Below are positions 3,418 through 27,953 of a DNA stretch of 39,232 nucleotides, piece by piece (the stretch's first letter is position 1; the number at the start of each line of letters is the position of its first letter). A program made the translations under genes and the position numbers. The notes under the pieces are model-generated. The model saw only the letters and a program-made list of their open reading frames with translations. It was not told where the DNA came from and ran no database searches. The stretch is from Bryobacteraceae bacterium. GTDB lineage: Bacteria > Acidobacteriota > Terriglobia > Bryobacterales > Bryobacteraceae. The stretch lies in NCBI GenBank assembly GCA_014860455.1, contig JACZJQ010000173.1, forward strand, positions 1 through 39,232. Reading direction: 5' to 3'.

Positions 3418-4494
3418 TCAACTGTCAATCACCGACTGGATCATGTCGCTCATGGCGCGGGCGAACTCGCCTTCGGAGAAGCGTGTCGCGAAAGCCTGCA
3501 AGCGATCGACCTGGATGGAAGCCTCCGCGGCCTCAAAGCGGCGCACGGCACCTTCGAGGTCGCCCTCGAGAGGCTGACCATAGAAGAATGCCCCCTCGGG
3601 AGGAACACTCTCCAGGGCCCCTCCCCGGCCGAGAGCGATCACAGGCTTGCCGCTGGCCACGGCCTCGACGGCGGTGATGCCGAAGTCCTCCTCCCCGGGA
3701 AGGATGAGCGCCCGGCAGCTCGCGTATAACGACTGCAGGTCTGAGTCGGAGACGCGTCCGCAGAACTCGATATTGCCGCTGGCCATGCGCTTCAGTTGGC
3801 GGTATTCAGGGCCGTCGCCGACCAGGCGCAGGCGGGCGCCGGTGCGGGAGAAGCAGCGGACCGCATAATCGAAGCGCTTGTAGGGGACCAGTTCGCCCAC
3901 GGCGAGAAAGTAACCTTCGGGTTGTTGCCAGCGGAATTGATCCACGGCAACCGGCGGATAGATCACCCGGGACTCGCGCCGGTAACACTTCCAGATACGG
4001 AGGCGGATGTTCTCGCTGTTGGCGGCGAACTCATCGACCCGAGAGGCGGAGGCGAAGTCCCAAATGCGGAGGTAGTTGGAAATGGGCACCATCGCGAGGC
4101 GCTGCCACGGTGGCGCCCACTCATTGCGGTAATCCGGATACATGTGCCAGAGGTAGCGCATGGGGGTGTGGCAGTAACAGATGTGTTTGGTTTCCGCCCG
4201 GGTGATGACGCCTTTGGCAGGGCCGGATTCACTGCTGATCACGAGGTCGTAGTCGCGCAGGTCGAAGTTCTCAAGCGCCATGGGCATGAGCCCAAGGAGG
4301 GCGCGGTGGAACCGGCGGCCTGGATTGAGGAATGACGCTGTAACTCGATGGGAGCGAATGGTGGTTGAGACGGAGGCGGGGTTGTAGAACAGCGTGAAGA
4401 TGTCCGCCTCGGGCAGGAGGCGGCAGAGAGCTTCCAGCACTTTCTCGCCGCCCCGCATTTGGAGCAGCCAGTAATGCGCGAGCGCAATACGCAT
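3418..4494 (-). CDS. Family 4 (WbaZ-like) glycosyltransferase
   Basis: A 358-residue cytoplasmic GT-B fold glycosyltransferase that would add a sugar, often mannose in close relatives, to a lipid-linked polysaccharide intermediate. The N-terminal acceptor domain begins MRIALAHYWL and includes a Gly-Gly loop (MRGGEKVLEAL, about residues 13-23). A CYCHTPMRYLWHMYPDY segment at 106-122 is typical of WbaZ-like mannosyltransferases. The C-terminal nucleotide-sugar domain starts near 195 (YFLAVGELVPYKRFD). It carries the family Glu-x7-Glu motif near 269-277 (EDFGITAVEAVASGKPV). The ATG at 4494 gives a full-length protein. It is divergent from the flippase gene across 57 bp and is the leftmost gene of the exopolysaccharide locus. 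Donor and acceptor cannot be read from the sequence. Confidence 0.88.
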   Translation of the reverse strand: MRIALAHYWLLQMRGGEKVLEALCRLLPEADIFTLFYNPASVSTTIRSHRVTASFLNPGRRFHRALLGLMPMALENFDLRDYDLVISSESGPAKGVITRAETKHICYCHTPMRYLWHMYPDYRNEWAPPWQRLAMVPISNYLRIWDFASASRVDEFAANSENIRLRIWKCYRRESRVIYPPVAVDQFRWQQPEGYFLAVGELVPYKRFDYAVRCFSRTGARLRLVGDGPEYRQLKRMASGNIEFCGRVSDSDLQSLYASCRALILPGEEDFGITAVEAVASGKPVIALGRGGALESVPPEGAFFYGQPLEGDLEGAVRRFEAAEASIQVDRLQAFATRFSEGEFARAMSDMIQSVIDS

Positions 4495-4551
4495 TGTGAT
4501 GGCAGTTTAGCACCCGTCAGCGAGCATACATGTTATGTTCTTTCAGCAGCC
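4495..4551. promoter_or_regulatory. 57-bp divergent intergenic region (glycosyltransferase / flippase)
   Basis: The only space between the start codons of the minus-strand glycosyltransferase (4494) and the plus-strand flippase (4552). Promoters for both must lie here or inside the coding ends. It is AT-richer than its surroundings (ACATGTTATGTTC around 4528-4540), but I cannot assign -35/-10 boxes with confidence. Confidence 0.35.
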
Positions 4552-5886
4552 ATGCGATGGATGCAGCGCATAAATGCGGCGCGGCCGATGCTGTCGGACA
4601 CCCTGATCGTGGCGGCCGGCAACGTGGTGGTGAAGGGTGCGGGGCTGCTGAAGCTCATCATCACGGCGCACCTTTTCGGCACGAGCGACGCGCAGGATGC
4701 GTTTCTGGCGGCATTCCTCCTACCGTCCTCGTTGGGGGACATTTTCGCAGCATCAGCAACGCCTGCTCTGGTTCCGGCGATGGTCCGGCTGCAGCCTGGA
4801 GAACATGATCGGGAAGCGGACGAACTGTACCGGTCGGCTTTTGCTTCCAGCGTGGCGGCGATGTGCGCGATCGCCGGCCTGCTGGCGCTGGCGGCGCCGG
4901 CGGTCTTCGCAATCATCGCGTCGGGTTTCAGCGGGGAGAAGACTCAACTGGCCACGACGCTCTTTTACTGGCTGCTACCGCTACTTCCCCTGGCCGGGTG
5001 CAATGTGGTCTGGCGTGCGGTTTTGAATGCGCACCGCCGTTTTGCGCTGGCAGCCGTGGCGCCCGCGGTGACTCCATTAACCACGTTGGCCGTCCTGGCG
5101 GGCGGCGCCTCACGCTGGGGGATCTACGCGTTGGCGTTCGGGGTTGTCGCCGGTGGGATGGCGGAAGCTGCACTGCTCGCGGCGGCCGTCCGCCGGCTGG
5201 GTTACGGAGTGTGTCCTCTGTGGAGGGGTAGGGGAGAGGGCCTGCGGGACGTGCTGCCGCAATTCGCACCCTTGTTGGGCGGCTCACTGCTCTTGGGCAG
5301 TTGCCCGCTCATCGACAATGCCATGGCCGCGGGCCTAGAGTCAGGCAGCGTGTCCGTACTCAATTTCGGCACCAGGCTCACAACCGTGCTCGCCTCAATC
5401 GGGCCCGCAGCGGTGGGTACGGCCGCATTGCCTCACCTGGCCGATATGGCGGCGCGCGGTGAATGGCGGAAAATGCGAGGAGATCTGCGGTGGTTCGGCT
5501 CGCTGATTGTGGCGGCGGTGATTCCGGTGGCCGCGGTCCTGATCGCGCTTACCGAGCCGCTGGTGCGCATCGCTTTCCAGAAGGGGGCTTTCAGCGAGGC
5601 CTCGACGCTCGCCGTGGCTGCGGTACAGCGGTACTCACTGCTTCAGATACCATTCGCGGTGTTGTCCGCACTGGGATTCCGGCTGGCGGCTTCGCTGCGG
5701 GCCAACGAACTGTTCCTGCCGGTAGCCGCAGTGGGGTTCTGTGTAACGGTGACGGCGGACTACCTGTTGCGTCAGGCGCTGGGCGTGCCGGGCATCGCGC
5801 TGGCGGCGACGCTTTCACAAATCGCGATGATTTCAACGCTCGCAGTGCTGCTTGCGCGCCGCCTGCGCAAGGGAAGGGCAGCATGA
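4552..5886 (+). CDS. MurJ/Wzx-like lipid-linked oligosaccharide flippase
   Basis: A polytopic inner-membrane protein of the MOP superfamily (MurJ/MviN type), about 444 residues from the chosen start, with 12-14 hydrophobic helices. Such proteins flip undecaprenyl-linked precursors (lipid II, or O-unit analogues) to the periplasm. Diagnostic features are the N-terminal SDTLIVAAGNVVVKGAGLLK helix and the AHLFGTSDAQDAFLAAF segment, which matches the MurJ helix-1/2 region. Later hydrophobic segments include LVRIAFQKGAFSEAST. The frame is open from 4459, but the ATG at 4552 is preferred: the earlier start would run into the divergent glycosyltransferase and adds a non-hydrophobic leader. ATG 4561 is also possible. 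In this polysaccharide cluster it more likely serves as the Wzx-like flippase than as the essential lipid II flippase; that is inferred from context. Confidence 0.85.
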   Translation: MRWMQRINAARPMLSDTLIVAAGNVVVKGAGLLKLIITAHLFGTSDAQDAFLAAFLLPSSLGDIFAASATPALVPAMVRLQPGEHDREADELYRSAFASSVAAMCAIAGLLALAAPAVFAIIASGFSGEKTQLATTLFYWLLPLLPLAGCNVVWRAVLNAHRRFALAAVAPAVTPLTTLAVLAGGASRWGIYALAFGVVAGGMAEAALLAAAVRRLGYGVCPLWRGRGEGLRDVLPQFAPLLGGSLLLGSCPLIDNAMAAGLESGSVSVLNFGTRLTTVLASIGPAAVGTAALPHLADMAARGEWRKMRGDLRWFGSLIVAAVIPVAAVLIALTEPLVRIAFQKGAFSEASTLAVAAVQRYSLLQIPFAVLSALGFRLAASLRANELFLPVAAVGFCVTVTADYLLRQALGVPGIALAATLSQIAMISTLAVLLARRLRKGRAA

Positions 5887-5941: not shown

Positions 5942-6952
5942 GTGCTTAGGGGCGAACGGATCCTGAAACAGCCTGATTCGCATGTCGGCATGGAGTGCGA
6001 TCCGCTCCTCTACCGTACCGGCCTGTCCTGCTGCCTCACGCTCCACCCCCTGGGTTTTCCAGTACGAGTGGAAAGCAACTCCAGTGAGGTGATCTCGGGC
6101 CTCGAGGAGTCCTGGGGAGGCTTCCAGAAGGAATTCGACGCGCCGCCTGTTGAACTCAGTGTGATCGTCAGCGCTTCGACGAACCAAGCGTTGCTGTCCC
6201 CGCCCGTGTTCCGGTGCCGGCGCCACGTGCTGACAGTGGTGGCGGATGCTGAGAACTTCGCTGCATGCGACTTGAACTCGGGGTACGGCTGCGCATGGAT
6301 CACCACGCAGACCGCCAAGGACAGTGCGTATTTGCGGGATTCCTTCACCGAGGCGCTCCTGCTTTCGATGCTGAATACCCGCCATCTCTCGCCGGTGCAT
6401 GCGGCCTGCGCAGTGCGCGACGGAACCGGAGTGCTGTTGTGCGGTGATTCCGGATCCGGGAAGAGCTCGCTGGCCCTGGCTTGCGCACTGCGGGGTTGGG
6501 CATTGTTGTGCGACGACGCAAGCTTCCTGGTGCGCAGTCTGGGCGGATGCACGGTGGTTGGGAACCCGTTCATAATGCGATTCAAACCCGACGCGGTGCG
6601 ATTGTTCCCACAACTTGGCGGGCGCACCGCGGTGGCTCGCCTAAATGGCAAGCCGACCATCCACCTGCGGACATCCGAGTTTCCGCAGATCGAAACGGTG
6701 CAGCGGGCGGAAGTGCGTTTCCTGGCTTTTCTGCGGCGGGGAGTACAAGTGGAAGCGCGTCTGGTCCGGCGCGAGGCGGATAGCCAGCCCCTACCTCAAC
6801 TGACCGAATACGGGGACGTGAACGACACAATTGAGCAGCATGAGGCGCGCCGGGCACTGTCAAGCCTGCCGGCCTACGATCTCTTCTACTGCGAACTGGA
6901 TGAAGCCGTGGAGCAGTTGGACGCCATCTTTCGCTCCGGTGGTGAGTTGTGA
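5942..6952 (+). CDS. HPr kinase (HprK)-like P-loop kinase
   Basis: A 336-residue protein related to the catalytic domain of HPr Ser kinase/phosphorylase. The C-terminal half shows a Walker A P-loop, GDSGSGKSS, at 168-176. It is preceded by the conserved SPVHAACA segment (His153) and followed by LLCDDASF (Asp191-Asp192), the acidic pair used by HprK-like kinases. Residues 1-150 form a poorly conserved N-terminal domain. There is no membrane segment. Canonical HprK would be shorter and accompanied by HPr and PTS genes, none of which are here. Related stand-alone kinases tailor peptides in lasso-peptide clusters (for example the paeninodin kinase) or occur in polysaccharide loci. The GTG start with AGGAG is preferred. 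Its stop overlaps the receptor start by 4 bp (GTGA), so the two are translationally coupled. The substrate is unknown. Confidence 0.82.
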   Translation: MLRGERILKQPDSHVGMECDPLLYRTGLSCCLTLHPLGFPVRVESNSSEVISGLEESWGGFQKEFDAPPVELSVIVSASTNQALLSPPVFRCRRHVLTVVADAENFAACDLNSGYGCAWITTQTAKDSAYLRDSFTEALLLSMLNTRHLSPVHAACAVRDGTGVLLCGDSGSGKSSLALACALRGWALLCDDASFLVRSLGGCTVVGNPFIMRFKPDAVRLFPQLGGRTAVARLNGKPTIHLRTSEFPQIETVQRAEVRFLAFLRRGVQVEARLVRREADSQPLPQLTEYGDVNDTIEQHEARRALSSLPAYDLFYCELDEAVEQLDAIFRSGGEL

Positions 6953-9900
6953 AGCTCGCCATCGTGGGTCTCTTCTGCACCGGAACCCTGTCAGCCCAGA
7001 TTTCGTCGGGGACACTACAGGGCGAGGTGAAGGATTCGGCGCAGGGGCTGATGGATGGGGCGCAGGTAACAGCGCGAAGCCGGGAGATGGGATTCACTCG
7101 CAGCGCCTTCACCGGCAGCGCCGGGGTTTACCGTATGGAGAACCTGGCCCCGGGCACATACGCGGTGACAGCCTCGCGGCCGGGCTTTGAAACGGCCAGG
7201 GCGGCGGAAGTACTGGTTGAAGTGAACGGAAGGACACGCCTGGACTTCGAACTTTCTCCAGGGGATGCGCGCGTGACGGTGGAGGTGACTGCGATAACCT
7301 CGGCGCTACAAACGGACGAATCGTCTTCCGGCTACCTGATGGGCGAGGCAGCGCTGTTGTCGCTACCGCTTGTTGGAAGGAACATCGTCTCGCTAGTCAC
7401 TGTGGGTCCGGGCGCTATACCACGGCAACTGGGTGGATTCACACACGACACCATCAACGACGTGCAGGGCAACCGTGGCACAGTGGCTCTCAACAACCCC
7501 ATCCACGGGGGACGGTCAACGATGAACGCCTATCTGATGGACGGGGTGAGCAACACGGATCGCAACGTGTACGCGATAGCCGTCATTCCGCCCATCGAGA
7601 GCGTGCAGGAATTCCGTGTGCAGTCATCGCTGGGGCAGGCTGAGTTCGCCAACGCGGGGGGAGGCGTGGTGGACGTGGTGACGCGCGCGGGGAGCGCGGA
7701 CACGCACGGGAGCCTGTACGAGTACCTGCGCAATGAGGCCGCCGACGCCCGCGGCTTCTTCGACGACCCGCGACTACCCAGCCCGGTTTTCAGGCAGAAT
7801 CAGTTCGGCGGCACCCTGGGCGGAAGACTGCCGGTGCCGGCCACGTTCTTCTTCGGCGCATACGATGGCGTGCGCGCGCGGTCGGCCGCATCAACGCTGC
7901 ACCTATTTCCCGGCGCGGCGTTGCGGTCCGGCGACTTCGAGGGCAGGAATGCGCTTTTCGATCCCCTCGGCGGAAACGGCGGTAGGCGTGTACCGTTAGC
8001 AGGAAATCAGATCCCCACCTCGCGCATCGACGCGGCGGCCCGCAGATACATCGAAGGCTACCTGCCGCTGCCAAACCGGCCCGAGGGAACGACGAACTAC
8101 CTGGATGCGACACCCAACGAGCAGGAGAACGACAGCGGCACCATTCGAATCGACCATCAACTGAAGGATCGGAGTTCGCTATTCGGCCGCTACGCCATCA
8201 ACGGGGAGCGCGGCCGCCTGGCCGGTGCGTTTCCGGAGAGGCCGAGCCTTGAGCGGCTCCGGGCGCAACAGGCGGTGCTCGGCTACACTCGCGCGGGCCG
8301 GAACTGGGTGAACGACGCGCGTGTGTCGTTCACGCGGCTGCGCGTGTTCAATACCCCGGAGAGCGCGTTCCAGACCGACGTTATGGCGGAACTGGGAATC
8401 GGAGGGTTTGGGTCGGACCCGTTCTACTACGGCCTGCCGCACTTCCTCGTGACGAACTTCGAAACCGTCCTCGATGCGACGACACTGCCACAGGTGCAGC
8501 GAGACAATCTCTGGGAATTCTCCGACAGTTACTCGCGGGTGGATGGGCGCCATCAATGGAAGGTAGGGGTTCAGTGGATTTACTTCCAGCTTAACTACCT
8601 GCAGAGCCGGTTTCCACGCGGGTTGTACCAATTCACCGGGACGTTCACGAGCGATTCCTCGCGTCCCGGAGAAACGGGCGATCCGTTTGCGGACTTCCTG
8701 CTGGGTTTCCCGCAATCGACGCGGCGTAGCACCGGCGACGCGACTGCGCATATGCGCCAAGAGACGTTCGCTGCGTTCGTGCAGGACGATTGGCGGATCA
8801 ACAGCCGGCTGACGCTGAACCTCGGGCTGCGATATGAGTATTTCGACCCATATAGCGAGAAACGCGGGCGCTTCCTGAACCTCGACTACAGCACGCTCCC
8901 CGGGCCTCCACGGTTGGTGCGGGAAGCGCGCGCCGTGGAACCGGACCGGAACAACCTGGCCCCGCGGGTGGGCCTCGTGTGGCGGGTTCAGGACATGTTC
9001 GGCCGCGACACTCGGGCTGTCTTCCGCGCCGGCTACGGCGTTTACTACGCCCCTGAGATCGCCGCGGAGACCTACGACCTGGTGCGGAACGCCCTGCAGA
9101 ACGAGCAGAACGAGACGACAGGCCTTGTGCCGCTGCTCACAATCGAGCAGGGCTTTCCCCGGAACGGCAAGCTGGGGCTGCCCAGCTACTTCGGGATGGA
9201 CCGCGGCGCGCGCACGCCGTACATGCAGCAATGGAGCGCGGGCGTGCAGCGGGAACTTGGGGGCCGGGCGGTGCTCGACATCTCGTATCTGGGGACAAAA
9301 GGCACTAAACTCGGCCGCTTCCGGCGCTTCAACACGCCCTTGCATGTCGAAACGGGGGAGAACCTCGACCCGCGCCCGGGCGAGTTGCAGTCGCTTAGGA
9401 CGTTTCCCGAACTGGGGCCGCTGTTCCAGCGACAGCACATCTCGAGTTCCTCTTATCATGCACTGCAGGTTCGCGCCGAAAAGCGCTTCTCGCGCGGCTT
9501 TTCGTTCCTGTTCGGATATGTGTGGTCCAAGTCGATTGATGACTCCGATGCGGTGACGGTGGGCCTATTCGACAGCGTTGGCGCCCAGGACGAGCGGAAC
9601 CTGCGGCTGGAACGTGGGCTGTCCTTATTCAACTCGGGCAGGCGCCTGAGCGGCGGGTTCACGTGGGATCTGCCAAAGCCGAACTGGATGGGGGTCTTGC
9701 TCCGGGGCTGGCAGACCAGTGGAATCGTCACACTGCAGGATGGAACACCGCTGAACCCGGTCTACTTCGCCGCCGATTACGCAAACTCGGGGACGCCGAA
9801 CCGGCCGAATGTCGTACCCGGACAGAAGGCGATGCTCCCCTCGGCGGCACGAAGCGCTGAACGCTACTTCAATACTGATGCGTACTCAACGCCCGCGCCT

Positions 9901-10152
9901 TACACTTTTGGTAACGCCGGGCGCAACACGCTGCCGGGGCCCGGGAACGCGGTGGTGGATGTCGCTCTGCAGCGGCGCTTTCAGTTGGACGCACGCTGGT
10001 CGCTGGCCTTCCGCGCGGAGGCATTCAACGCGCTCAACCATCCGAATATCGGAATCCCGATTCCATTTGCAGACTTCGGCCCGTTCTTCGGCCGTATCGC
10101 CTCCTCTGGGAAGCCGCGGAGATTCCAGTTTGCGGCGCGTCTCGATTTCTGA
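6949..10152 (+). CDS. Oar-like TonB-dependent outer-membrane receptor
   Basis: A 1067-residue outer-membrane protein of the large Oar/CarboxypepD_reg type common in Acidobacteriota. Residues 1-16 form a short signal peptide (MKLAIVGLFCTGTLSA). A carboxypeptidase-regulatory-like beta-sandwich follows at about 20-100 (GTLQGEVKDS to the GTYAVTASRPGFET region), then a plug region near 110-230 (LPLVGRNIVSLVTVGPGA, STMNAYLMDGVSN). The rest is a long beta-barrel with alternating aromatic strands and the usual C-terminal Phe (FAARLDF). Such receptors take up or export large substrates using TonB energy, or act as surface scaffolds. The GTG start overlaps the kinase stop, and its stop overlaps the next ATG (TGATG), so it is the middle gene of a tightly coupled trio. 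Its cargo is unknown; context suggests a product modified by the flanking kinase and nucleotidyltransferase. Confidence 0.92.
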   Translation: MKLAIVGLFCTGTLSAQISSGTLQGEVKDSAQGLMDGAQVTARSREMGFTRSAFTGSAGVYRMENLAPGTYAVTASRPGFETARAAEVLVEVNGRTRLDFELSPGDARVTVEVTAITSALQTDESSSGYLMGEAALLSLPLVGRNIVSLVTVGPGAIPRQLGGFTHDTINDVQGNRGTVALNNPIHGGRSTMNAYLMDGVSNTDRNVYAIAVIPPIESVQEFRVQSSLGQAEFANAGGGVVDVVTRAGSADTHGSLYEYLRNEAADARGFFDDPRLPSPVFRQNQFGGTLGGRLPVPATFFFGAYDGVRARSAASTLHLFPGAALRSGDFEGRNALFDPLGGNGGRRVPLAGNQIPTSRIDAAARRYIEGYLPLPNRPEGTTNYLDATPNEQENDSGTIRIDHQLKDRSSLFGRYAINGERGRLAGAFPERPSLERLRAQQAVLGYTRAGRNWVNDARVSFTRLRVFNTPESAFQTDVMAELGIGGFGSDPFYYGLPHFLVTNFETVLDATTLPQVQRDNLWEFSDSYSRVDGRHQWKVGVQWIYFQLNYLQSRFPRGLYQFTGTFTSDSSRPGETGDPFADFLLGFPQSTRRSTGDATAHMRQETFAAFVQDDWRINSRLTLNLGLRYEYFDPYSEKRGRFLNLDYSTLPGPPRLVREARAVEPDRNNLAPRVGLVWRVQDMFGRDTRAVFRAGYGVYYAPEIAAETYDLVRNALQNEQNETTGLVPLLTIEQGFPRNGKLGLPSYFGMDRGARTPYMQQWSAGVQRELGGRAVLDISYLGTKGTKLGRFRRFNTPLHVETGENLDPRPGELQSLRTFPELGPLFQRQHISSSSYHALQVRAEKRFSRGFSFLFGYVWSKSIDDSDAVTVGLFDSVGAQDERNLRLERGLSLFNSGRRLSGGFTWDLPKPNWMGVLLRGWQTSGIVTLQDGTPLNPVYFAADYANSGTPNRPNVVPGQKAMLPSAARSAERYFNTDAYSTPAPYTFGNAGRNTLPGPGNAVVDVALQRRFQLDARWSLAFRAEAFNALNHPNIGIPIPFADFGPFFGRIASSGKPRRFQFAARLDF

Positions 10153-12557
10153 TGCCTCCCGTGCCTGACAGCATCCGAGCAGTAGTCGATGCGCTTCACT
10201 TCCGCGCGCCTCGCAGGGAGAGGCTAGCCGCCCTCAGCCCCGCGGAATGGGCCGAAGCGCTGGCCTTCTGCGACCGAACCCAGTTGACGCTGGTGTTGCT
10301 GCTGCGATGTGAAGGCCACCTGCCGCCAGAGATCAAGTCGCGCATCGAGGCCAACCTGGCGGCCAACCAGCTTCGCTTCGGGCGCCTCTTGGAGACGTAC
10401 GGCGAAGCCGGGTCAGCCCTGCGCCGCGCGCAAATCCCGTATGTTGTGCTGAAGGGCTTCTCGCAGAGCCCGTGGTTTGGCGGCGACGCCGCGGCACGGA
10501 TCCAATACGATCTCGACCTGCTCTGTCCTCCCGATGATATTTGGCGGGCGCGCGACTGCATGCTGGAGTTGGGCTATCAACCGGTGCGCGGCTCTGAGCG
10601 CTTCCCGACAGACCATCTGCCCGTCATGGTGCGAAAGACCGGCTACGAATGGAACGGCGACTATTTCGACCCTCGGATTCCCGTGAGCATAGACCTGCAC
10701 TTTCGGCTCTGGGACCGGCAGACCGAGCGGTTCGAGCCAGGGGGCGTGGGCTCATTCTGGGGCCGGAGAGTACTGGATCGTTTGGAGTGTGGAGAGTTCC
10801 CGGCACTGCATCCGGCGGATCGCTTGGGTTATGCGTGTCTCCACTTGCTGCGACATCTACTGCGAGGAAGCCTGCGGCCCTATCACGTCTATGAGATCGC
10901 CTGGCTGCTGGAGCACCGCGAGGGCGATACCCGCTTCTGGACGGAGTGGCGCGAGTTGCACGGCGCAGATCTCAGGCGGGTGGAGGCCATCTGCTTCGCG
11001 CTATGCGAGAAGTGGTTCGGCTGCCGCATGGCTGAAGCGGCCGGCGAGGAGGTCAGCGCACTGCCGCGGGACTGCCGCGCGTGGCTTGACGAGTACGGAG
11101 ATGCCCCTCTGGAAGGGCTCTTTGTGCCGAATAAGCACGAACTTTGGCTGCATTTGGGGTTGGTGGGATCAGGGCGCGACCGCGCAGCAGTGGTTCTTCG
11201 CCGGCTGCTGCCTGTCAAGTTTCCTGGGCACGTGGATTCCGTGCTGGTGCCGGAGCAGCAACTGACCGTCTGGTTGCGGATCCGCAGGCAATGGCGCTAC
11301 TGGCGTTTTGTCCTCGGGCGCATGGTGCACCATGGACGCGCGCTGCCGTCTGTGCTCGCGCATGGCACGGCCTGGCTCGCTCACCGCGCAGGGCTTGATC
11401 GGCGGTTTTTCCGCTTTCTGAGCGCGGCGTGGCTTTACGAACTGGGGATGTTCGTATTCGTGCTGCTCTATAACCTGCACCTCATCGACCTGGGCTACCG
11501 CGAGGATTTTCTGGGCCAGGTGACCAGCGCGCAAACCGTGGGCAGCTTGGCCGGCGCACTGCCCGCGGGCGTCCTGGTTCAACGGGCAGGCATAGGCCGT
11601 ATGTTGAGCGTGGCATTCGTACTGCTGGGCTCCCTATTCGCATTGCGAACCGTGGTTACAGGGCGGGTGACGCTACTGGCATTGGCATTCGCCGGCGGCA
11701 TGGTGTTTTCGGCGTTTATGGTGGCGTTTGCGCCAGCCATCGCAAGGATGACGCGGCCGGAGAGCCGTCCACTCGGCTACGGGATTTTCTTCTCTTCCGG
11801 AATCGCGCTCGGTATCGTTGGCGGGGTGCTGGGAGGGCGGCTGCCGGGATGGATGTCGGGCGTGGGATTGCAGGGGACGCAGGCGGCGCTGCTGGCCTCC
11901 TGCGCGCTCATTGCACTGGCCGCGTGGCCGGTGTCGAGTCTGCGGCTGCCGCCAGTGGATCAGCCAGCGCAGAAACTGTATCCGCGCAACCCAATACTGT
12001 GGCGGCTTTTGGCAGTGATTGCGGTGTGGAACCTGGCGACCGGATCGTTCAATCCCTTCTTCAACGCGTTCTTCGCCGATCACATGGGGACGGGCGTGGA
12101 AAGGCTTGGGACCATTTTTTCGATCTCGCAGCTTGCGCAGGTAGCAGCCATGTTGAGTGCACCCTGGGTGCTGCGCAGGTTCGGACTGGTGGGAGGGATC
12201 GTGTGCATGCAGGTGGCGACGGGGGTCGCCCTGGCGGGGCTGGCTGCCGGGCCTGGCGCATCCGCGGCCGCCGCCATTTACGTTGGATATATGGCATTCC
12301 AGTGGATGTCGGAACCGGGCATCTACAGCGCTCTAATGAATCCGCTGAAACCGGCTGAGATGGGCGGCGCGGCCGCGTTGAACATGGTGGTGACCCTGGC
12401 GGCACAAGCAATCGCAGCGTCCGTGGCGGGAGTGGTGATCACCAGACTCGGTTACCCGGCCTTGCTGATGCCGGCCGGTGCGGTGGCCGTGTTGGCCGGC
12501 CTGTTGTTCTGGTTTCTGCTGCGCAAGACAGCCTCCTCCATCAGTGCCAGCACCTGA
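10152..12557 (+). CDS. Fusion of PF14907-type nucleotidyltransferase and MFS transporter
   Basis: An 801-residue two-part protein. Residues 1 to about 390 match the uncharacterised nucleotidyltransferase family PF14907 (polymerase-beta fold). Its marks are VVLKG at 98-102, the metal-binding YDLDLL at 119-124 (Asp120, Asp122), a third acidic residue in VSIDLHFRLWD (Asp181), and helical His/Trp-rich segments after it. From about 423 to the end there are 11-12 hydrophobic helices of a major facilitator superfamily permease (FLSAAWLYELGMFVFVLLYN onward), with the half-molecule break near 590-620 (PVDQPAQKLYPRNPILW). The reading frame is continuous, with no sign of an assembly join. It starts one base inside the receptor stop (TGATG). 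The permease could export a product nucleotidylated by the N-terminal domain; this is inference. Its last 106 bp overlap the convergent glycosyltransferase gene. Confidence 0.85.
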   Translation: MPPVPDSIRAVVDALHFRAPRRERLAALSPAEWAEALAFCDRTQLTLVLLLRCEGHLPPEIKSRIEANLAANQLRFGRLLETYGEAGSALRRAQIPYVVLKGFSQSPWFGGDAAARIQYDLDLLCPPDDIWRARDCMLELGYQPVRGSERFPTDHLPVMVRKTGYEWNGDYFDPRIPVSIDLHFRLWDRQTERFEPGGVGSFWGRRVLDRLECGEFPALHPADRLGYACLHLLRHLLRGSLRPYHVYEIAWLLEHREGDTRFWTEWRELHGADLRRVEAICFALCEKWFGCRMAEAAGEEVSALPRDCRAWLDEYGDAPLEGLFVPNKHELWLHLGLVGSGRDRAAVVLRRLLPVKFPGHVDSVLVPEQQLTVWLRIRRQWRYWRFVLGRMVHHGRALPSVLAHGTAWLAHRAGLDRRFFRFLSAAWLYELGMFVFVLLYNLHLIDLGYREDFLGQVTSAQTVGSLAGALPAGVLVQRAGIGRMLSVAFVLLGSLFALRTVVTGRVTLLALAFAGGMVFSAFMVAFAPAIARMTRPESRPLGYGIFFSSGIALGIVGGVLGGRLPGWMSGVGLQGTQAALLASCALIALAAWPVSSLRLPPVDQPAQKLYPRNPILWRLLAVIAVWNLATGSFNPFFNAFFADHMGTGVERLGTIFSISQLAQVAAMLSAPWVLRRFGLVGGIVCMQVATGVALAGLAAGPGASAAAAIYVGYMAFQWMSEPGIYSALMNPLKPAEMGGAAALNMVVTLAAQAIAASVAGVVITRLGYPALLMPAGAVAVLAGLLFWFLLRKTASSISAST

Positions 12558-13594
12558 TCCCGGTACCGCTCCACCGTGTAGCGCTGTTCCCAGAGGTCGC
12601 GGGCGGCGCTTGCCACAGGGGCGAGGCGTCCGGGAGCGTCGAGCAGTTCTCGAAGGCAGCCCGCCAGCGAGGATGCGGATGGTTCGCTGACCAGAAACCC
12701 GGTCCGGCCGTGCGTGATGAGTTCGGGGATCGCTCCGGCAGCGAAGGCCACCACAGGCACGCCGGCGCTGAAGGCCTCCACGACGACGCGGGAAAACGCT
12801 TCATTCGGACCCGAAGGCACAACCAGGATGTCCACTGTCCGTAATGCCTCGGCAGGCGTCTCCCGGCTGGTGAACTCGATGGGCAGCCCTGCGGCTTGCC
12901 GCCGCACCTCATCGGCATATGCCGGATCCGCCAGCACAGCTTGGCCGCAAATGACGAACCGGCAAGCGGATTCCGGCCTGGCGAGCATCCTGACCGCTTC
13001 AACGAATTCGCGCTGGCCCTTCTCCGGTGCGATTCTCCCGATGACGCCGACTCGGAGTGGCGGGGAAGCTCCCCAGGGACGGTAGCCCAGGTCCTCGGTG
13101 CCATTGGGGACGATGTGCGGGGCGCATATGCCGCGCAGCGATTGAGCCACGAACTGCGAGGCGGCCAGCACGGTGGCGCGGCGCGTGGCGCGCTTCACCA
13201 GCCACCGCTCAGGTGTTCGCGAGAGGACACTGTGCGCGTGGAACAGCAGAGGCGCGCCCGACAGGCTTGCGGCTGGTAGCACACGGGGCCCGTTGGCATA
13301 GACTAGATCGATGGAACAGGCGGCAACCATACGCCTGAGCCGCATCGCCGCGCGAGGCGTGTCGAGCAGGAAGCGGGCGAAGTCTGCCGGGCTCTTGCGG
13401 CCATAAGCGTATGGGCCGCAGGGGATGCTCTGGACTGGCACGCCGCCCTCCGCCAACCTGCCGATCAGAGGGCCATTGCGGGGCAGTGCGGCGAAGCATC
13501 GCCACCCGCGCTGGCGGGCGCCGGCCAGCACGTCCAGCAGACAGAACTGGGCGCCGCCCATCTCGCTGTACTGATCGACGAATAGGACGTTCAC
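12452..13594 (-). CDS. Family 4 glycosyltransferase
   Basis: A 380-residue GT-B glycosyltransferase of the exopolysaccharide locus, expected to work on the cytoplasmic face of the inner membrane. The N-terminal acceptor domain opens MNVLFVDQYSEMGGAQFCLL, with the Gly-Gly loop at 13-14. The donor domain begins near 180 (LRVGVIGRIAPEKGQREF) and carries the Glu-x7-Glu motif near 265-273 (NEAFSRVVVEAFSAGVPVV), followed by GAIPELI. The ATG at 13594 overlaps the stop of the upstream polymerase gene (ATGA, 4 bp), so it is the last gene of a wzz-wzy-GT operon on the minus strand. Its final 34 codons overlap the convergent MFS end. The residues beyond the last helix (from about 360) are Asn/Ala/Pro-rich and look dispensable. 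Sugar specificity is unknown. Confidence 0.88.
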   Translation of the reverse strand: MNVLFVDQYSEMGGAQFCLLDVLAGARQRGWRCFAALPRNGPLIGRLAEGGVPVQSIPCGPYAYGRKSPADFARFLLDTPRAAMRLRRMVAACSIDLVYANGPRVLPAASLSGAPLLFHAHSVLSRTPERWLVKRATRRATVLAASQFVAQSLRGICAPHIVPNGTEDLGYRPWGASPPLRVGVIGRIAPEKGQREFVEAVRMLARPESACRFVICGQAVLADPAYADEVRRQAAGLPIEFTSRETPAEALRTVDILVVPSGPNEAFSRVVVEAFSAGVPVVAFAAGAIPELITHGRTGFLVSEPSASSLAGCLRELLDAPGRLAPVASAARDLWEQRYTVERYRDQVLALMEEAVLRSRNQNNRPANTATAPAGISKAG

Positions 13595-14970
13595 CGGCGT
13601 TCCACTCGTACAGCTTGTCCCAGGACCCAGAAGTATACGGGCATCACCCGCCAGTAGGTGAGCAGATCACCGGACAGCATCTGAACAAGCTGGCCGGTCC
13701 AGAAGCAGAAGATCCAGGCGCCGAAAAAGCTGTGGCGGGCACGCCATGCGGCATGGAGAATGGCCGCATTCAGGGCTAGAAATGCAGCCAGGCCGGCAAT
13801 GCCTGTCTCCGCGAGCAAGCCGAGATACATGTTGTCGGCGGTGATGGGGCCGCCTGGGAGGTCCGAGTAAGGCAGTGTCTTGTATCCGACACCGAGCAGC
13901 AGATGCCAGGGATGATCGAGGAGAAACCCGCCAAGCCGCTGCCAGCTTTCTAGCCGGCCGGAGAGGACGCTGTTGGGAGAGCTGAAGAAGTACTGCACGG
14001 AGAGCCACAGGCGAAGCATCCATGTCGTGACGAACTGGCTGAACAGGCCAAACGCGAGCAATGCCGTGCCCGCGAAGAAGAGCGCCGCCCGCACCCAGCG
14101 CCGCGCATGGAGGAGCGGCCGGTGCAGGCAGATCATGACTGCGAGAGAAACACCGAGATTCACGAGTGAGGCGCGGGAATAAGAGAGTAGGAGGGCGGTG
14201 GCGAGCAAAGGAACGGCGACAGCGATGGAGAGCCGTGAGACGGGCGTCTCGTGTTTCGGCCGGACCACGCGCAGCGCCGCCATCGTCAGAAAGAACACAC
14301 AAAAGTTGCCGAGAGTGCTGGCCTCGTAGAAGAAACCCTGGGCTCGGCGGAAGACTCCCGTATCGAGCCAGATGAACTGCGCGCCGAAGCCCGCGGGCGC
14401 GGGCCATTGGAATTGGAAATCGAGACAGGCGAACAGCGCGGAGCCGGCAGCCGCCAGAAAGAGCAGGCGCGTGAGTCGGCGCGGGTCGCAAACGGGCCCG
14501 TAGGCGGCGTAGAAATAGACGTAGCAGGCGATTCCGAACAACAGGACGCGCGCGAGGCTGCCGGCTCCGACCGTCCATCCCGAGTAGAGAAACGCCAAGC
14601 CGGTGCTTCCTAGCAGCACCGCAAAGAAGAATGCGAGCGACGCTGGGAGCACGGCCATACGAATGCGCCAGTCCCCCAGGCGGAGAAGACCTGCCGGAAT
14701 CCCGAGGGCTGCAATGAAAACGGCGACATGGGGCCCCGAGTTGCCCAGTGCGACGGGCAAGGGGGGCAGGAGCAGGGCGGCGAGGAAGAACGCGGACAGC
14801 CAGCGCTGGGCATGCAGGAGCACGAACCAGGCCAGCGGAGCGGCCAGCAACAGCACGGCGGCGGCCAGCGCGGCTGGGGAGGGGAGGAGGACGGCGGTCG
14901 CCGCGAGAATCCCGATCAACGCGGGCGGCAACAGGTCTCGCTTATCAATAGCCTGCAAAGCGCTGTTCAC
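13591..14970 (-). CDS. Wzy/O-antigen ligase-like polysaccharide polymerase
   Basis: A 459-residue inner-membrane protein with about 11-12 hydrophobic helices. A periplasmic loop before the last helices carries the Wzy_C/WaaL-type pattern (LLGVGYKTLPYSDLPGG, then the DNMYLGLLAETGIAGLAAF segment). Such proteins polymerise lipid-linked repeat units or ligate them to an acceptor. Because a Wzz-like gene lies immediately upstream, with a 4-bp ATGA overlap at 14967-14970, polymerase is the likelier role. A 4-bp overlap also links it to the glycosyltransferase downstream. The start at 14970 is fixed by this coupling. Polymerases and ligases cannot be told apart from sequence alone. Confidence 0.82.
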   Translation of the reverse strand: MNSALQAIDKRDLLPPALIGILAATAVLLPSPAALAAAVLLLAAPLAWFVLLHAQRWLSAFFLAALLLPPLPVALGNSGPHVAVFIAALGIPAGLLRLGDWRIRMAVLPASLAFFFAVLLGSTGLAFLYSGWTVGAGSLARVLLFGIACYVYFYAAYGPVCDPRRLTRLLFLAAAGSALFACLDFQFQWPAPAGFGAQFIWLDTGVFRRAQGFFYEASTLGNFCVFFLTMAALRVVRPKHETPVSRLSIAVAVPLLATALLLSYSRASLVNLGVSLAVMICLHRPLLHARRWVRAALFFAGTALLAFGLFSQFVTTWMLRLWLSVQYFFSSPNSVLSGRLESWQRLGGFLLDHPWHLLLGVGYKTLPYSDLPGGPITADNMYLGLLAETGIAGLAAFLALNAAILHAAWRARHSFFGAWIFCFWTGQLVQMLSGDLLTYWRVMPVYFWVLGQAVRVERR

Positions 14971-16025
14971 GCGCCGGCCCCGCCGGTTGTTTCCGGACCG
15001 TTGGATCGCCGCTGTTTCATGCTAAAGCCGGCGGCCAGTGAGAGCAGCGATACCGCGAGCGCCAGCATCACGGCGGCGGTGACGATCAATGGGGTTTTGG
15101 GAAAACTGGGCTCCTGCGGGACGGTGCCGGAGTCGATCACCTGGAGGCGCTCGCCGAGCAAGCCGGCATTGCCCTGCAGATTCCGCACGCGCTCACGCGA
15201 GGCCTGCAGGTCGCGGGAGGCGGCGTCGAATTCGAGCTGCAGGGCAGTGCGCCTGACCGTCCGCTGGGCCAGGCTTTCGTTCTTGATCCGGATGCGGCGA
15301 TCCAGCTCAATCGCCTGTGTCTGCAGTTCAGCGGCGCGCCGGGCGAGTGATTCATCGGGGCGTTCCGCCAGATCGGCGCGCGCGTCCAGCAGATCGCGCT
15401 CAACGCTGGTGCGCATATCCATGAGGCTCTCAAGATCGTACTTGATAGCTGCGATCGCCTCCTGGCGGTCTTCCTGGTCGAGGGCGCGCTGAACGGCGGC
15501 AAGTGATTTTTCCGCCGCGTCGAGCTGAGCCTGGCTGCTCGCGACGACATCGTTCTCGGCCCGCCGGCCGGCAGACTCGCTGAGGGCCACGGTCTCGCGC
15601 GCCAAATATGCCGCCAGGGCTGCGGCCTGTTTCGGTTCCGGCAACGAGACGGAGATTTGGAGGATTCTCGTGTCGCGGAGTTTCGACACCTTTAGCACTC
15701 GGCGCTTCAAGGCTTCGATGGACTGATTGGGATCGGTCTTAAGATGGAACTCCTCCACGGCCCGGCGGAAGAGGCTGTCGTTGTCCGCAAAATGCTCATA
15801 GGTCTTGAGCGACTCCAGGTAGACGGGACTCACGGCAATGGCCGCGCGCGGATCGCTGATGGCCGGCGGGTCGATGAGGATACTGGCGGTCGCGGAGTAT
15901 CGCTTGGGAAGCAGCAGGCTTCCTAGGAGCGCTACCGCACCGGCCAAGGCGCAAGCTAGCGCGACGTACCACCACCTGACCCGAAGGTAGGCCATGAACT
16001 CGTAGGGGTCAAACGAGTCAGTCAT
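14967..16025 (-). CDS. Wzz/GumC-like polysaccharide chain-length determinant
   Basis: A 352-residue inner-membrane polysaccharide co-polymerase that sets polymer length with the polymerase. The topology is classic. A short cytoplasmic N-terminus (DSFDPYEFMAYLRVRWWY) leads into a first membrane helix at about 18-40. A large periplasmic domain follows, beginning with the conserved YSATASILIDPP strand; its long coiled-coil (about 140-295) is rich in Ala, Glu, Arg and Leu. A second membrane helix lies at about 310-335, preceded by the Pro-rich PQEPSFPKTP motif. There is no C-terminal tyrosine-kinase domain, so it is the kinase-less form. It is the first gene of the minus-strand wzz-wzy-GT operon and starts only 24 bp from the divergent WaaL-like gene. 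Confidence 0.88.
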   Translation of the reverse strand: MTDSFDPYEFMAYLRVRWWYVALACALAGAVALLGSLLLPKRYSATASILIDPPAISDPRAAIAVSPVYLESLKTYEHFADNDSLFRRAVEEFHLKTDPNQSIEALKRRVLKVSKLRDTRILQISVSLPEPKQAAALAAYLARETVALSESAGRRAENDVVASSQAQLDAAEKSLAAVQRALDQEDRQEAIAAIKYDLESLMDMRTSVERDLLDARADLAERPDESLARRAAELQTQAIELDRRIRIKNESLAQRTVRRTALQLEFDAASRDLQASRERVRNLQGNAGLLGERLQVIDSGTVPQEPSFPKTPLIVTAAVMLALAVSLLSLAAGFSMKQRRSNGPETTGGAGA

Positions 16026-16049: not shown

Positions 16050-17828
16050 ATGGCGATCCTGGCACCCGTCGTGCTTGTTCTCTTGCCTCTGCTGATCCTG
16101 CCCGGAACTCTTTTCTACTACGACGTCACGCCGAAGGCCGCGGTTTTATTGTTGGGGACAGCTGCGGGACTGATCTGCTTCGATGCGAATGCCAGTGCGA
16201 TGCGGATGCTGCTGGCGACGCGGTACGGGCGTTGGTTCGCCGCGCTCCTGGGGTGCCAGTTGGTGAGCCTGATCCTGTCGACGGCGGCTTCCACCAACCC
16301 CGCCCTTTCGGCCGGCGGAACAAACTGGAGACGCTATGGGTTGATCACGCAGACCGCCCTGGCGCTGTTCGCGCTGATGCTGGCAGGGCACTTCAGTCTG
16401 AATCCCCGACTGGTGGTGCGCGCGCTCCGAGCCACGGCGGTGGTTGCATCCGTTGCTGCCGTTTACGGGATCCTACAGTACTTCGGATGGGATCCGCTAC
16501 TCCCGGCTGAATCCTATCAGGCGGGGGAAGGCGAGTTTGCAATCGTGCGGCCGCCGGCGACTTTCGGCCACGCGGCCTATTTCGCGACGTACCTTCTTTT
16601 TGGTCTGTTTGCGGCCATTTCGTTGAGGCAGGAGGATCGTTGGCTGAGTCGGCTGGCAATCGTCCTGATCCCGATGGCAATCCTGCTAAGTGGCACACGC
16701 GCGGCGTTGCTGGGGTTGCTTGCGGGGCTGGTGACACTGATGGCGCTGGCCAGGCCGCGGCTGCGAACGGTCGCATTGGTTGCGGCGCTGGCGCTCGGGG
16801 GTGTTGCGGCGTTGCTGTTGACGCCGGCAGGGAAACGCCTGGAGGCACGCGTACATTGGTCGGTCGATGATGCCCGGGGAGGTGCTCGACTTCTGCTGTG
16901 GCGCGATTCGCTGCGGATGGGTGTCTCGCACTGGATGGTGGGAACCGGACTCGAGACCTTTGGAAACTCGTTCCCGGCCTGGGAATCCAAGGAACTGGCG
17001 CGGCAGTACCCCGACTTCTTCCACGAGTCGCCGCACAACATGTTTCTGGATGTGCTCAACGCGCAAGGGGTTCCCGGGTTGCTCGTGTGGGTAGGCCTGT
17101 GCGTCCTGCCGTTGCTCTCTATACGAAGGGAGCCTGCCTTGGGCGCCGGATGGGTGGCTGCCCTGGTTAGCCTGCAATTCAGCAGTCCGACCGTCGCGAC
17201 CGCATTGGGGTTGCTGTGCCTGGCCGCGGCAATGGTGCGCGGGCAGAAAAACCCGGCCGGGTTTGACTCGGCCACTCGGCGGAGGCTGACTCCAGGGATT
17301 CTGGCCATCGGGTTGGCGATGACCGGCCTGATGCTGGTCATGACGGATCTACATCTGCAGAGGGTGAAATCCTCATTGGATGCGGGCCGGGGCGAGGATG
17401 CCGCGGCGGCCTACCGGCAGGCTTCCCGCTGGGCGCTGCCGGGCGGAAATGCGGGCATCTATTATTCGCGCCGAATGGCGGTCTTGGGGCGTTGGCCGGA
17501 CGCGCTTGAGGCGGCACGCCGCACGGTTCAGACGGCGGAAGACCGGCAAAACGCCTTTTACAACCTGGCTGTCATTCAGGCCGCGGTGAACGATGCAACA
17601 GGCGTCGAATCGAGTCTCAGGGCGGCCATCGGGAATGCGCCCAACTGGTTCAAGCCACGCTGGACGCTGGCACAGATACTAGCATTGCAGGGCCGTTTCG
17701 ATGAGGCGGAGCGGGAAGGAGCGATTGCGGCGGACCTGGCTGGCGGGCGTCACCCGGAAGTAGGCGAAGCGCTCTCGAAAATCCGGCAATCAAAGCAGTT
17801 GTCGCGCCAGGCGCCACCCGCCCGGTGA
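16050..17828 (+). CDS. O-antigen ligase/polymerase-like protein with C-terminal TPR region
   Basis: A 592-residue protein. Residues 1 to about 435 form a polytopic membrane domain with 10-12 helices and a Wzy_C-type periplasmic loop (GTGLETFGNSFPAW, then DFFHESPHNMFLDVL and GVPGLLVWVGL at about 300-350). The His-Asn within HESPHNMF is characteristic of the WaaL/Wzy family. After the last helix, residues about 445-592 are soluble and helical with TPR-like repeats (DAAAAYRQASRWAL, WPDALEAARRTVQTAEDR, WTLAQILALQGRFDEAEREG). Ligases or polymerases with TPR tails are known and may use the repeats for partner contact. It is the second Wzy/WaaL-type protein in the locus, so one may polymerise and the other ligate. 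The start at ATG 16050 is followed at once by the first helix. Confidence 0.84.
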   Translation: MAILAPVVLVLLPLLILPGTLFYYDVTPKAAVLLLGTAAGLICFDANASAMRMLLATRYGRWFAALLGCQLVSLILSTAASTNPALSAGGTNWRRYGLITQTALALFALMLAGHFSLNPRLVVRALRATAVVASVAAVYGILQYFGWDPLLPAESYQAGEGEFAIVRPPATFGHAAYFATYLLFGLFAAISLRQEDRWLSRLAIVLIPMAILLSGTRAALLGLLAGLVTLMALARPRLRTVALVAALALGGVAALLLTPAGKRLEARVHWSVDDARGGARLLLWRDSLRMGVSHWMVGTGLETFGNSFPAWESKELARQYPDFFHESPHNMFLDVLNAQGVPGLLVWVGLCVLPLLSIRREPALGAGWVAALVSLQFSSPTVATALGLLCLAAAMVRGQKNPAGFDSATRRRLTPGILAIGLAMTGLMLVMTDLHLQRVKSSLDAGRGEDAAAAYRQASRWALPGGNAGIYYSRRMAVLGRWPDALEAARRTVQTAEDRQNAFYNLAVIQAAVNDATGVESSLRAAIGNAPNWFKPRWTLAQILALQGRFDEAEREGAIAADLAGGRHPEVGEALSKIRQSKQLSRQAPPAR

Positions 17829-21641: not shown

Positions 21642-22769
21642 TCAGGGGTTGCGGCCGGGCGATTGGAGGGGTTGGCCGGCGTCGCGGAAGTCTTCCCATT
21701 TGAAGAGGAGGAAGTTTTTCGGGCCGGAGTTCATGACCACGACGAGTCCGGCTGGAAAGTGCGGGCCGAGAGGGCGTGACGTCGCTTCCAAACCGTCGGT
21801 CGAATCGGCGCCCCCGCGGATGCATTTGAGCATTTCCACATGGTCGTGCGGGCCGGCGGGGCCGCCTTCGCGGCGGTAGATGTGGTAGTGGGTGTTGCCG
21901 GCGATCTGGTCTGTGCAGATGACGTAGCCTTTGCCGCCGGGCATGGAGTAGATGGCGATGCCCTCGCGGTCGCCGGCGAATTCCTTGAGTCCGAAGTGCG
22001 CGAGTTCGCGGGCGGCAGCGGGGTGGTCGGGATCGGCGTGCCATTTGTGGATGCCGCTGCCCTCGTCGGCGTAGTAGACGAAGCCGAGTTCGTCGTCCAC
22101 GGCGACGGCCTCAATCTCCTTGCTGCCGCTGAAGTTGCCGAATCGGCGGACGTGGGTGGTCTTCACCTTACCTGTGCCGTCGTCTTCGAGGCGGTACTGG
22201 CGGAGGTAGCCCTGCCGGGGCCCGTTCTTGGGGGCGACGATGGCAAAAATGGCGCCGTCGGAGGGACGGCGGTACAGGGCGATGCCCATGGGTTCGGCGA
22301 GTTCGCCGGCCTCGCCCTGGAGGATGTGGGCGCCTTCGGGCGATGAGATGTCGGTGAGCGGCGAGCCGTCGGCAGGAATGAGGAAGACGCGCAGGCGGGA
22401 TTTGAGACGCTCCGTGGCGACGGCGATATCTGCCTGGCGGCCCCGGAGGGTGAGGCCGTATTCGACGTCGATGTTGTTGGGGCGGTCGATGCGGGCGATG
22501 GTCTGGCGGATGGTGCCGTCGAGGTTGAAGACGACGACGGCGCCGGCGGGTGCGGCCACTTTATTGGTGCCGATGATGAGGGACTTCGACGGGTCATCGG
22601 GATGGACCCAGATGGCGGGGTCGTCGGCGTCGTCTGTAACGGGTTGGGTGGCGAGAACCTCCTTGACGTCGACGGAGGTGTGGGCGGGCCGGTTCGAGCA
22701 GCCTGCCAGCGCCAGCAAGGAGAAAAACGCGGCGGCGGTTTCCCGCCGCCGGAATGGGAGGCAATACAT
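21642..22769 (-). CDS. Beta-propeller phytase, lipoprotein
   Basis: A 375-residue exported phytase of the beta-propeller (PhyC, PF02333) type, which removes phosphate from inositol hexakisphosphate in a calcium-dependent way. A lipoprotein signal ends in LLALAGC (Cys24), so it is anchored in a membrane and faces the periplasm or outside. The propeller starts with the family pattern DDADDPAIWVHPDDP and LIIGTNK. It continues through RPNNIDVEYGL, EPMGIALYRRPSDGAIF, IEAVAVDDELGFVYYADE and DREGIAIYSMPGGKGYVI. These acidic blade motifs bind calcium and phosphate. The frame opens at a TTG (22781), but the ATG at 22769 is preferred because AGGAAC lies 3-8 nt upstream. It follows the Oar-like receptor gene by 21 bp and is probably in its operon. 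Confidence 0.9.
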   Translation of the reverse strand: MYCLPFRRRETAAAFFSLLALAGCSNRPAHTSVDVKEVLATQPVTDDADDPAIWVHPDDPSKSLIIGTNKVAAPAGAVVVFNLDGTIRQTIARIDRPNNIDVEYGLTLRGRQADIAVATERLKSRLRVFLIPADGSPLTDISSPEGAHILQGEAGELAEPMGIALYRRPSDGAIFAIVAPKNGPRQGYLRQYRLEDDGTGKVKTTHVRRFGNFSGSKEIEAVAVDDELGFVYYADEGSGIHKWHADPDHPAAARELAHFGLKEFAGDREGIAIYSMPGGKGYVICTDQIAGNTHYHIYRREGGPAGPHDHVEMLKCIRGGADSTDGLEATSRPLGPHFPAGLVVVMNSGPKNFLLFKWEDFRDAGQPLQSPGRNP

Positions 22770-22790
22770 AAAGTTCCTCAAACGAGGAGT

Positions 22791-27782: not shown

Positions 27783-27953
27783 GTTGTTCACCGGACAGCT
27801 TGAACCGCCTTCGTTACAGGAGTATGCATATCGGACTAACGGAGAGTGAGCCGGAGCGGTTGGCGCGCCGCCGCTCGCCTGTGCGAGGTGCGGCGCGCCG
27901 CCACGCTCGGAACAAAACCTACAATTTGTGTTTGACAATTCACGGCCGCTAAA

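Follow-up and report, generated by a model that had tools for sequence, protein, structure and literature searches.

A kinase, an Oar-type outer-membrane protein and a nucleotidyltransferase-permease recur together in Terriglobia and suggest a possible transport-coupled tailoring route in polysaccharide loci

The closest described relatives of the enzymes considered here tailor lasso peptides. In the available excerpts of two reports (PMC9266682, PMC8498205), lasso kinases carry a His-Lys-Asp-Asp motif and phosphorylate a C-terminal Ser, and some nucleotidyltransferases (NTs) occur as fusions with the lasso B2 protein; in the excerpts of the first (PMC9266682), the pseudomycoidin enzyme PsmN adds one or two hexoses to the phosphorylated Ser and may be either a glycosyltransferase or a true NT. 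Here we analyse a 39,232-nucleotide stretch of DNA from a Bryobacteraceae bacterium (hereafter the window; contig JACZJQ010000173.1, our C276, of the 5.29 Mb genome GCA_014860455.1), in which genes for an HprK-like kinase, an Oar-type outer-membrane protein and an NT fused to a major facilitator superfamily (MFS) permease follow one another on the plus strand. The linkage of kinase, Oar and NT-MFS is recurring, and we read it, tentatively and as a little short of probable, as a tailoring pair of kinase and NT that is served by a dedicated transport path across both membranes and lies within polysaccharide loci of Terriglobia. The combined evidence suggests a dedicated route that moves and chemically tags one compound in soil Acidobacteria. 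A full-text search of open-licence papers returned no description of this module, which comprises the following genes:

5942..6952, plus strand: kinase of predicted HprK/PEPCK fold, 336 residues, GTG start; H153, K174 (Walker A), D191 and D192
6949..10152, plus strand: Oar-type TonB-dependent receptor-like outer-membrane protein, 1067 residues; GTG start overlapping the kinase stop by 4 bases
10152..12557, plus strand: PF14907 NT (residues 30-290) fused to an MFS permease (about residues 424-746), 801 residues; ATG sharing one base with the Oar stop; NT catalytic residues K101, G102, R116, D120 and D122

The three overlapping plus-strand genes reported in the first-pass annotation of this DNA hold exactly (GTGA at 6949-6952, TGATG at 10150-10154), and its domain calls for kinase, Oar and PF14907 NT plus MFS are borne out by profile scores and by the predicted structure of the kinase. 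Sequence models score the kinase weakly, at 27.9 bits against PF07475 (cutoff 33.3, not reached), 27.8 bits against TIGR00679, the HPr kinase/phosphorylase family (curated cutoff 240, not reached), and 46.5 bits over residues 151-328 against HprK_rel_A (TIGR04352), its best NCBIfam match, whose cutoff of 200 leaves it outside that named family. Despite these scores the kinase is predicted to adopt the HprK/PEPCK fold: its AlphaFold2 model (predicted local distance difference test score, pLDDT, of 90.9) matches phosphoenolpyruvate (PEP) carboxykinases across about 275 residues with Z up to 15.7, and HPr kinases across about 130 residues, with a Z of 14.5 and a root-mean-square deviation of 2.5 for 1ko7 (Foldseek, VIA-align). 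Residues H153, K174, D191 and D192 constitute the His-Lys-Asp-Asp motif of the lasso kinases; the first two and D192 are kept in 78/78 kinases and D191 in 71/78, these 78 being the kinases that score above 150 bits in 80 stretches (the window and L033-L111). The third gene product scores 109.3 bits against PF14907 (cutoff 31.2) and 68 bits against MFS_1, its whole-chain model covers both halves at a pLDDT of 92.1, and K101, G102, R116, D120 and D122 of the NT are kept in 60/60. The catalytic residues of both enzymes are thus intact; the family-wide inactivation that the first-pass annotation had named as fatal to its proposal did not occur. By analogy, these conserved motifs and the PsmN precedent make phosphorylation, then transfer onto the phosphate, the likely chemistry of the pair. 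A sequence search of solved structures gave nothing useful for the NT half or the MFS half; the best 50 Foldseek matches of the whole NT-MFS model are MFS transporters, with importers and exporters mixed (VMAT2, G6PT, NorA, a galactonate symporter), so direction is not set by fold. For the middle gene, the domains OMP_b-brl_4 (705 bits) and CarboxypepD_reg (66.5 bits) identify the product as an Oar-type outer-membrane protein, with TonB-dependent transport predicted.

Recurrence was assessed in stretches chosen from class matches with E <= 1.5e-38 together with earlier phylum matches, most weaker class matches lying outside the set; the fetched stretches span 5-20 kb, some ending at contig edges, and the window 39 kb. 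Of the 78 kinases, 21 have a same-strand Oar gene no more than 300 bp away, as do 14/765 control genes of the same loci, an enrichment of about 15-fold (Fisher p = 1e-14, a test that ignores kinship), and the adjacent Oar and kinase open frames are spaced -390 to +30 bp. On the kinase tree the adjacent-Oar label changes 12 times versus 18.6 times when shuffled; adjacency is thus clustered on the tree, yet has been gained or lost repeatedly. The genes therefore behave as a recurring unit, and the unlinking in relatives that had been put forward as grounds for dropping the idea did not occur. The order seen in the window is common to seven sampled Bryobacteraceae genomes (window, L052, L053, L059, L061, L067, L086) and is also found in L152, L158, L161, L164 and L166, although it proves to be only one arrangement among several. 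Indeed, in the second large family of kinase loci, taken as Acidobacteriaceae, Oar comes first, followed by kinase and MFS, with the NT nearby or farther away. A fused NT-MFS gene occurs in 13 loci; in 5 more the two are separate neighbouring genes, on opposite strands in 2 of those. Among at least 39 named Acidobacteriota loci listed, 15 have an adjacent Oar, including that of Terriglobus roseus DSM 18391 (L183); some of L152-L190 are the same contigs as in the L033-L111 set, and the two sets are not summed. A plasmid search gave no match. An apparent MurJ–kinase fusion in L164 is not claimed, its junction containing an ambiguous codon. As a separate observation, several Acidobacteriaceae loci (L033, L035, L038, L042, L064 and others) encode a small c-type cytochrome, a CuA-like cupredoxin and a porin-like protein without a Pfam match, and a run of response regulator, histidine kinase, porin and cupredoxin recurs near the module in this family.

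With the exception of that of L111, all adjacent Oars belong to one of two orthologue groups. Against the window Oar, the module Oars of six relatives show 54-78% identity and score more than 1260 bits, and the next best Oar reaches 458 bits. A comparably close Oar was found neither in 20 Bryobacteraceae genomes listed without the kinase, two of them of the same genus (best 552 bits, 37%), nor in 14 Bryobacteraceae genomes with the kinase and without an adjacent Oar. In one genome (G724), a contig begins with an Oar fragment of 58% identity and the kinase sits at the end of a different contig, as would be expected if the assembly were broken within the module; in a genome of another family (G402), the Oar adjoining the kinase (L111) is 48% identical to that of the window. 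The second group, found in Acidobacteriaceae and one further family, is a different Oar from that of Bryobacteraceae. Its top match falls in the module locus in 16/16 genomes tested, the query's own included, and in G147, G394 and G588 it lies a few genes from the kinase on the other strand. It was not found in 15 genomes of the class outside the kinase-bearing list, a few of which perhaps lay outside the original kinase sample, and among 24 genomes with a kinase and without an adjacent Oar it occurs in one (G579), whose kinase locus carries an MFS gene. The two groups separate on a tree that is biased by its non-module Oars, picked from the best matches to the window Oar; since a single common clade is not rejected there by the approximately unbiased (AU) test (p = 0.132), independent recruitment of two Oar lineages is not claimed.

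The two transporters tend to occur together. Oar orthologue status was hand-coded genome-wide from the top 18-45 Oar candidates per genome, and MFS, radical S-adenosylmethionine (radical-SAM) and polysaccharide status were judged inside the fetched stretches only. The comparison covers 62 loci. The excluded 16/78 comprise loci of genomes outside the Oar searches, second kinase loci in four genomes, and L072, from a searched genome in which the module is interrupted by contig ends. Of the 62 loci, 24 have both transporters, 5 only the MFS, 1 only the Oar (L111, on a short contig) and 32 neither, such that an Oar orthologue accompanies 24/29 MFS-bearing and 1/33 MFS-free loci (Fisher p = 3e-11). 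By comparison, Oar orthologue status is unrelated to NT proximity (p = 0.79). This tracking upholds the earlier treatment of the two transporters as a pair, and the case that Oar and MFS handle the same compound is good but not decisive. Furthermore, MFS occurs in 29/78 kinase loci and a B12-radical-SAM profile in 28, with both in 0 and neither in 21. In representative loci (L037, L039, L041, L046, L050), methyltransferases, an amidohydrolase domain, a SPASM radical-SAM protein and a UDPGT-like glycosyltransferase are among the products encoded nearby. That transporter-free loci often have radical-SAM and methyltransferase genes offers a lead, namely that the compound may be made there instead of imported. 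Separately, a short MFS remnant (33 bits) directly follows the kinase at L065:10497-10634, and the search of that genome also gave no Oar orthologue, as if both transporters had been lost.

Around the module, the exopolysaccharide surroundings described in the first-pass annotation are confirmed by the following genes:

3418..4494, minus strand: GT4 glycosyltransferase, divergent; cluster c4, recurring near the module in relatives; Pfam score above cutoff
4459..5886, plus strand: MurJ-family flippase directly 5' of the kinase; 192.5 bits, below the MurJ equivalog cutoff
12452..13594, minus strand: GT4 glycosyltransferase, convergent, its 3' end overlapping the NT-MFS gene; cluster c7; Pfam score above cutoff
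13591..14970, minus strand: Wzy_C polymerase/ligase; cluster c3
14967..16025, minus strand: Wzz-like chain-length protein; cluster c5; 22.1 bits, Pfam cutoff of 25.5 not reached
16050..17828, plus strand: second Wzy_C protein, with a TPR-like C-terminus; cluster c6

The window module thus lies in a Wzx/Wzy-like polysaccharide locus. Because the MurJ-family protein falls below its equivalog cutoff, it probably has a Wzx-type role; its placement ahead of the kinase is repeated in L052, L053 and L086. Counting profiles for Wza, Wzz, Wzx, Wzy, WecG, the MurJ family and the initiating transferase, at least one polysaccharide gene is found in 53/78 kinase stretches and two or more kinds in 41. Of 17 Bryobacteraceae loci, the window included, 13 have a Wzy_C cluster and 11 have a Wzz-like cluster; L059, L067, L081 and L161 are without either. 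Among the matches listed, the kinase has a Poly_export gene no more than 20 kb away in 12/36 genomes, a count read by eye, with about 1 expected from the 2-8 such genes per genome, and none of these 12 is a genome with the kinase–Oar–NT-MFS order. An initiating sugar-phosphate transferase (PF02397) is present in L052 and L084 and stands beside a GT4 gene in L052 and L053; in the window, PF02397 gave no tblastn match better than E 0.34. In two other genomes, a 1373-residue open reading frame (ORF; L042:14315-18436 and L043:14840-18961, minus strand) encodes a PF14907 NT and a Wza-like (Poly_export/SLBB) protein in one chain, the two parts being separated by a hydrophobic segment that resembles a signal sequence. 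Elsewhere in the window we note an IS1634-type transposase (1292-2923) near the polysaccharide locus, a phytase gene adjoining a second Oar-type protein (21642-25772, minus strand), possibly a phytate-use pair, and a fusion of GNAT and acyltransferase (25944-27938, minus strand) that we presume resembles ornithine-lipid synthesis proteins.

Set against lasso-peptide tailoring, to which the enzymes had been likened, the locus shares the enzymes and departs in its partners. The analogy itself is correct on the available parts of PMC9266682 and PMC8498205. The lack of B1/B2 proteins and a cyclase was also called rightly: a Pfam scan of 30 window ORFs found no B1, B2 or asparagine-synthetase-like cyclase domain (no genome-wide cyclase search was made), and the 78 kinase loci gave no PQQD or TGL profile match. 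Among short ORFs in the gaps of 119 loci, no conserved precursor-like ORF was found, although a precursor gene might lie farther away; the recurring clusters that look genuine are the c-type cytochrome and the CuA-like cupredoxin, the rest of the 25 listed having the look of antisense shadows or chance. The only PF13471 (B2) and PF05402 (PqqD/RRE B1) matches of the genome are on contig C328, outside the window, and four kinase-bearing genomes (G147, G036, G195, G297) have neither on a genome-wide search. Contig C328 (L051, 839-11125) holds a lasso-like cluster of its own, with a PF14907 NT, an ABC transporter, a transglutaminase-like B2, an asparagine synthetase and a related second protein, and PqqD; it also includes a weakly HprK-like protein (28 bits to the module kinase profile). 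We reject the module as a lasso-peptide cluster, since the lasso-like genes are on another contig with their own NT.

Under the transport-coupled tailoring that we favour, Oar would carry a small hydroxylated compound inward across the outer membrane, and the MFS permease would then bring it across the inner membrane. The kinase would phosphorylate a hydroxyl of the compound, and the NT domain, tethered on the cytoplasmic side of the permease, may add a nucleotide (or a sugar) to that phosphate. The activated compound could finally decorate the polysaccharide made by the flanking glycosyltransferase, flippase and polymerase genes. Should transport-coupled tailoring hold, inward transport is, in our estimation, somewhat the likelier direction, and we hold to the tailoring more firmly than to the direction. 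We favour Oar/MFS import because the permease is fused to the NT, no peptide is found, polysaccharide genes are present and the MFS excludes radical SAM. The outward movement proposed in the first-pass annotation did not stand: nothing fixes it, and the MFS/radical-SAM exclusion (0/78 with both) fits uptake at least equally, with almost no phylogenetic replication. A fuller version, in which Oar and MFS form a matched import pair, the kinase phosphorylates a small molecule, the permease-tethered PF14907 domain nucleotidylates it for polysaccharide decoration, and sister lineages swap the import pair for a B12-radical-SAM set, seems to us doubtful as a whole; if true, it would connect an Acidobacterial Oar with an inferred substrate pathway and show that both enzyme families can act on small molecules.

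Several observations weigh against the transport-coupled tailoring reading. No result fixes the direction of transport, the compound is itself inferred, and no substrate or acceptor gene was identified. The kinase tree gives only 6 supported independent pairs differing in MFS, with Oar agreeing in about 5.3 (median sign-test p = 0.06), and only about 1.1 informative pairs for MFS versus radical SAM, so that this exclusion could be one old split. Four Bryobacteraceae loci (L054, L056, L070 and L084) and the locus L088 have an MFS gene without an Oar orthologue, and the excluded second kinase loci L094 and L077, in Oar-bearing genomes and lacking MFS, would weaken the locus count slightly. An MFS of the module's family (406 bits) follows an esterase-like gene at L040:8207-10456 with no kinase nearby and Oar genes in the stretch, possibly a second use of the permease family. 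No polysaccharide profile matches 25/78 kinase loci, including 9/21 of those with an adjacent Oar. Finally, the characterised relatives of the kinase and NT act on peptides, not on sugars or small molecules, as far as the available parts of the two reports go (PMC9266682, PMC8498205).

This last point leads to export, in which the two enzymes would modify a ribosomal peptide or another small product encoded elsewhere, by phosphorylation and then glycosylation or nucleotidylation, and the product would leave through the MFS and cross the outer membrane by way of Oar. We consider this unlikely, although it must be taken seriously: the lasso kinases with the shared motif phosphorylate a peptide Ser, PsmN acts on the resulting phosphate and NT–B2 fusions exist, all within the excerpts cited above, and the TonB-dependent transporter Oar of Myxococcus is needed for PopC secretion in the available part of PMC6434023. 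Yet no conserved precursor-like short ORF was found near the 119 loci, and the four kinase-bearing genomes named above have neither PF13471 nor PF05402 on a genome-wide search. TonB-dependent proteins are, furthermore, mostly importers. Less probable still, and in our view improbable, is a regulatory role in which the kinase would phosphorylate a sensor or one of the proteins that build the polysaccharide, with Oar and MFS taking part in nutrient sensing that sets polysaccharide output. The kinase fold is common to HPr kinase, a protein kinase, and response-regulator and histidine-kinase profiles each match 23/78 kinase loci, mostly in Acidobacteriaceae and often followed by a porin and a cupredoxin; however, the invariant NT motif and the NT-MFS fusion are left unexplained, and the window has no response-regulator or histidine-kinase match. 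That Oar is a bystander, only kinase, NT and MFS forming a unit, is already disfavoured and very improbable, for although Oars are common enough that many operons might receive one (at least 37 Oar-family matches per genome in 12/12 Terriglobia genomes) and 57/78 kinases have no adjacent Oar in the stretch examined, a few of them at contig edges, adjacency far exceeds the control rate and the adjacent Oars, L111 aside, are two orthologue groups that track MFS and were not found in the tested kinase-free genomes.

We know of no established substrate for any Terriglobia Oar-type protein. In these loci, co-occurrence allows Oar orthologue groups to be matched to an inner-membrane permease family and to two enzymes whose chemistry can be assayed. 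Transport-coupled tailoring would also move the kinase/PF14907 pair from lasso peptides into an envelope setting, and the presence of the locus in named strains, such as the T. roseus strain above, makes the question open to gene removal.

Among known systems, LicABC phosphocholine salvage places a kinase, a permease and a nucleotidyltransferase in one locus that feeds an envelope glycan. The module would have the same three activities in one locus with an envelope glycan; it differs in that the protein families are not known to be related, and in that the module adds an outer-membrane protein and fuses the NT to the permease. The Oar of Myxococcus xanthus is presumably a TonB-dependent outer-membrane protein of the same Oar type. 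Its reported role, in the part of PMC6434023 available, is in secretion of the PopC protease. Also close are the lasso-tailoring enzymes PsmK/PsmN and PadeK/ThcoK, which in the excerpts of PMC9266682 and PMC8498205 likewise combine an HprK-like kinase, the His-Lys-Asp-Asp motif and an NT acting in sequence on one hydroxyl. Unlike those systems, the module has no precursor, B1/B2 or cyclase found beside it, and its enzymes are accompanied instead by Oar, MFS and polysaccharide genes.

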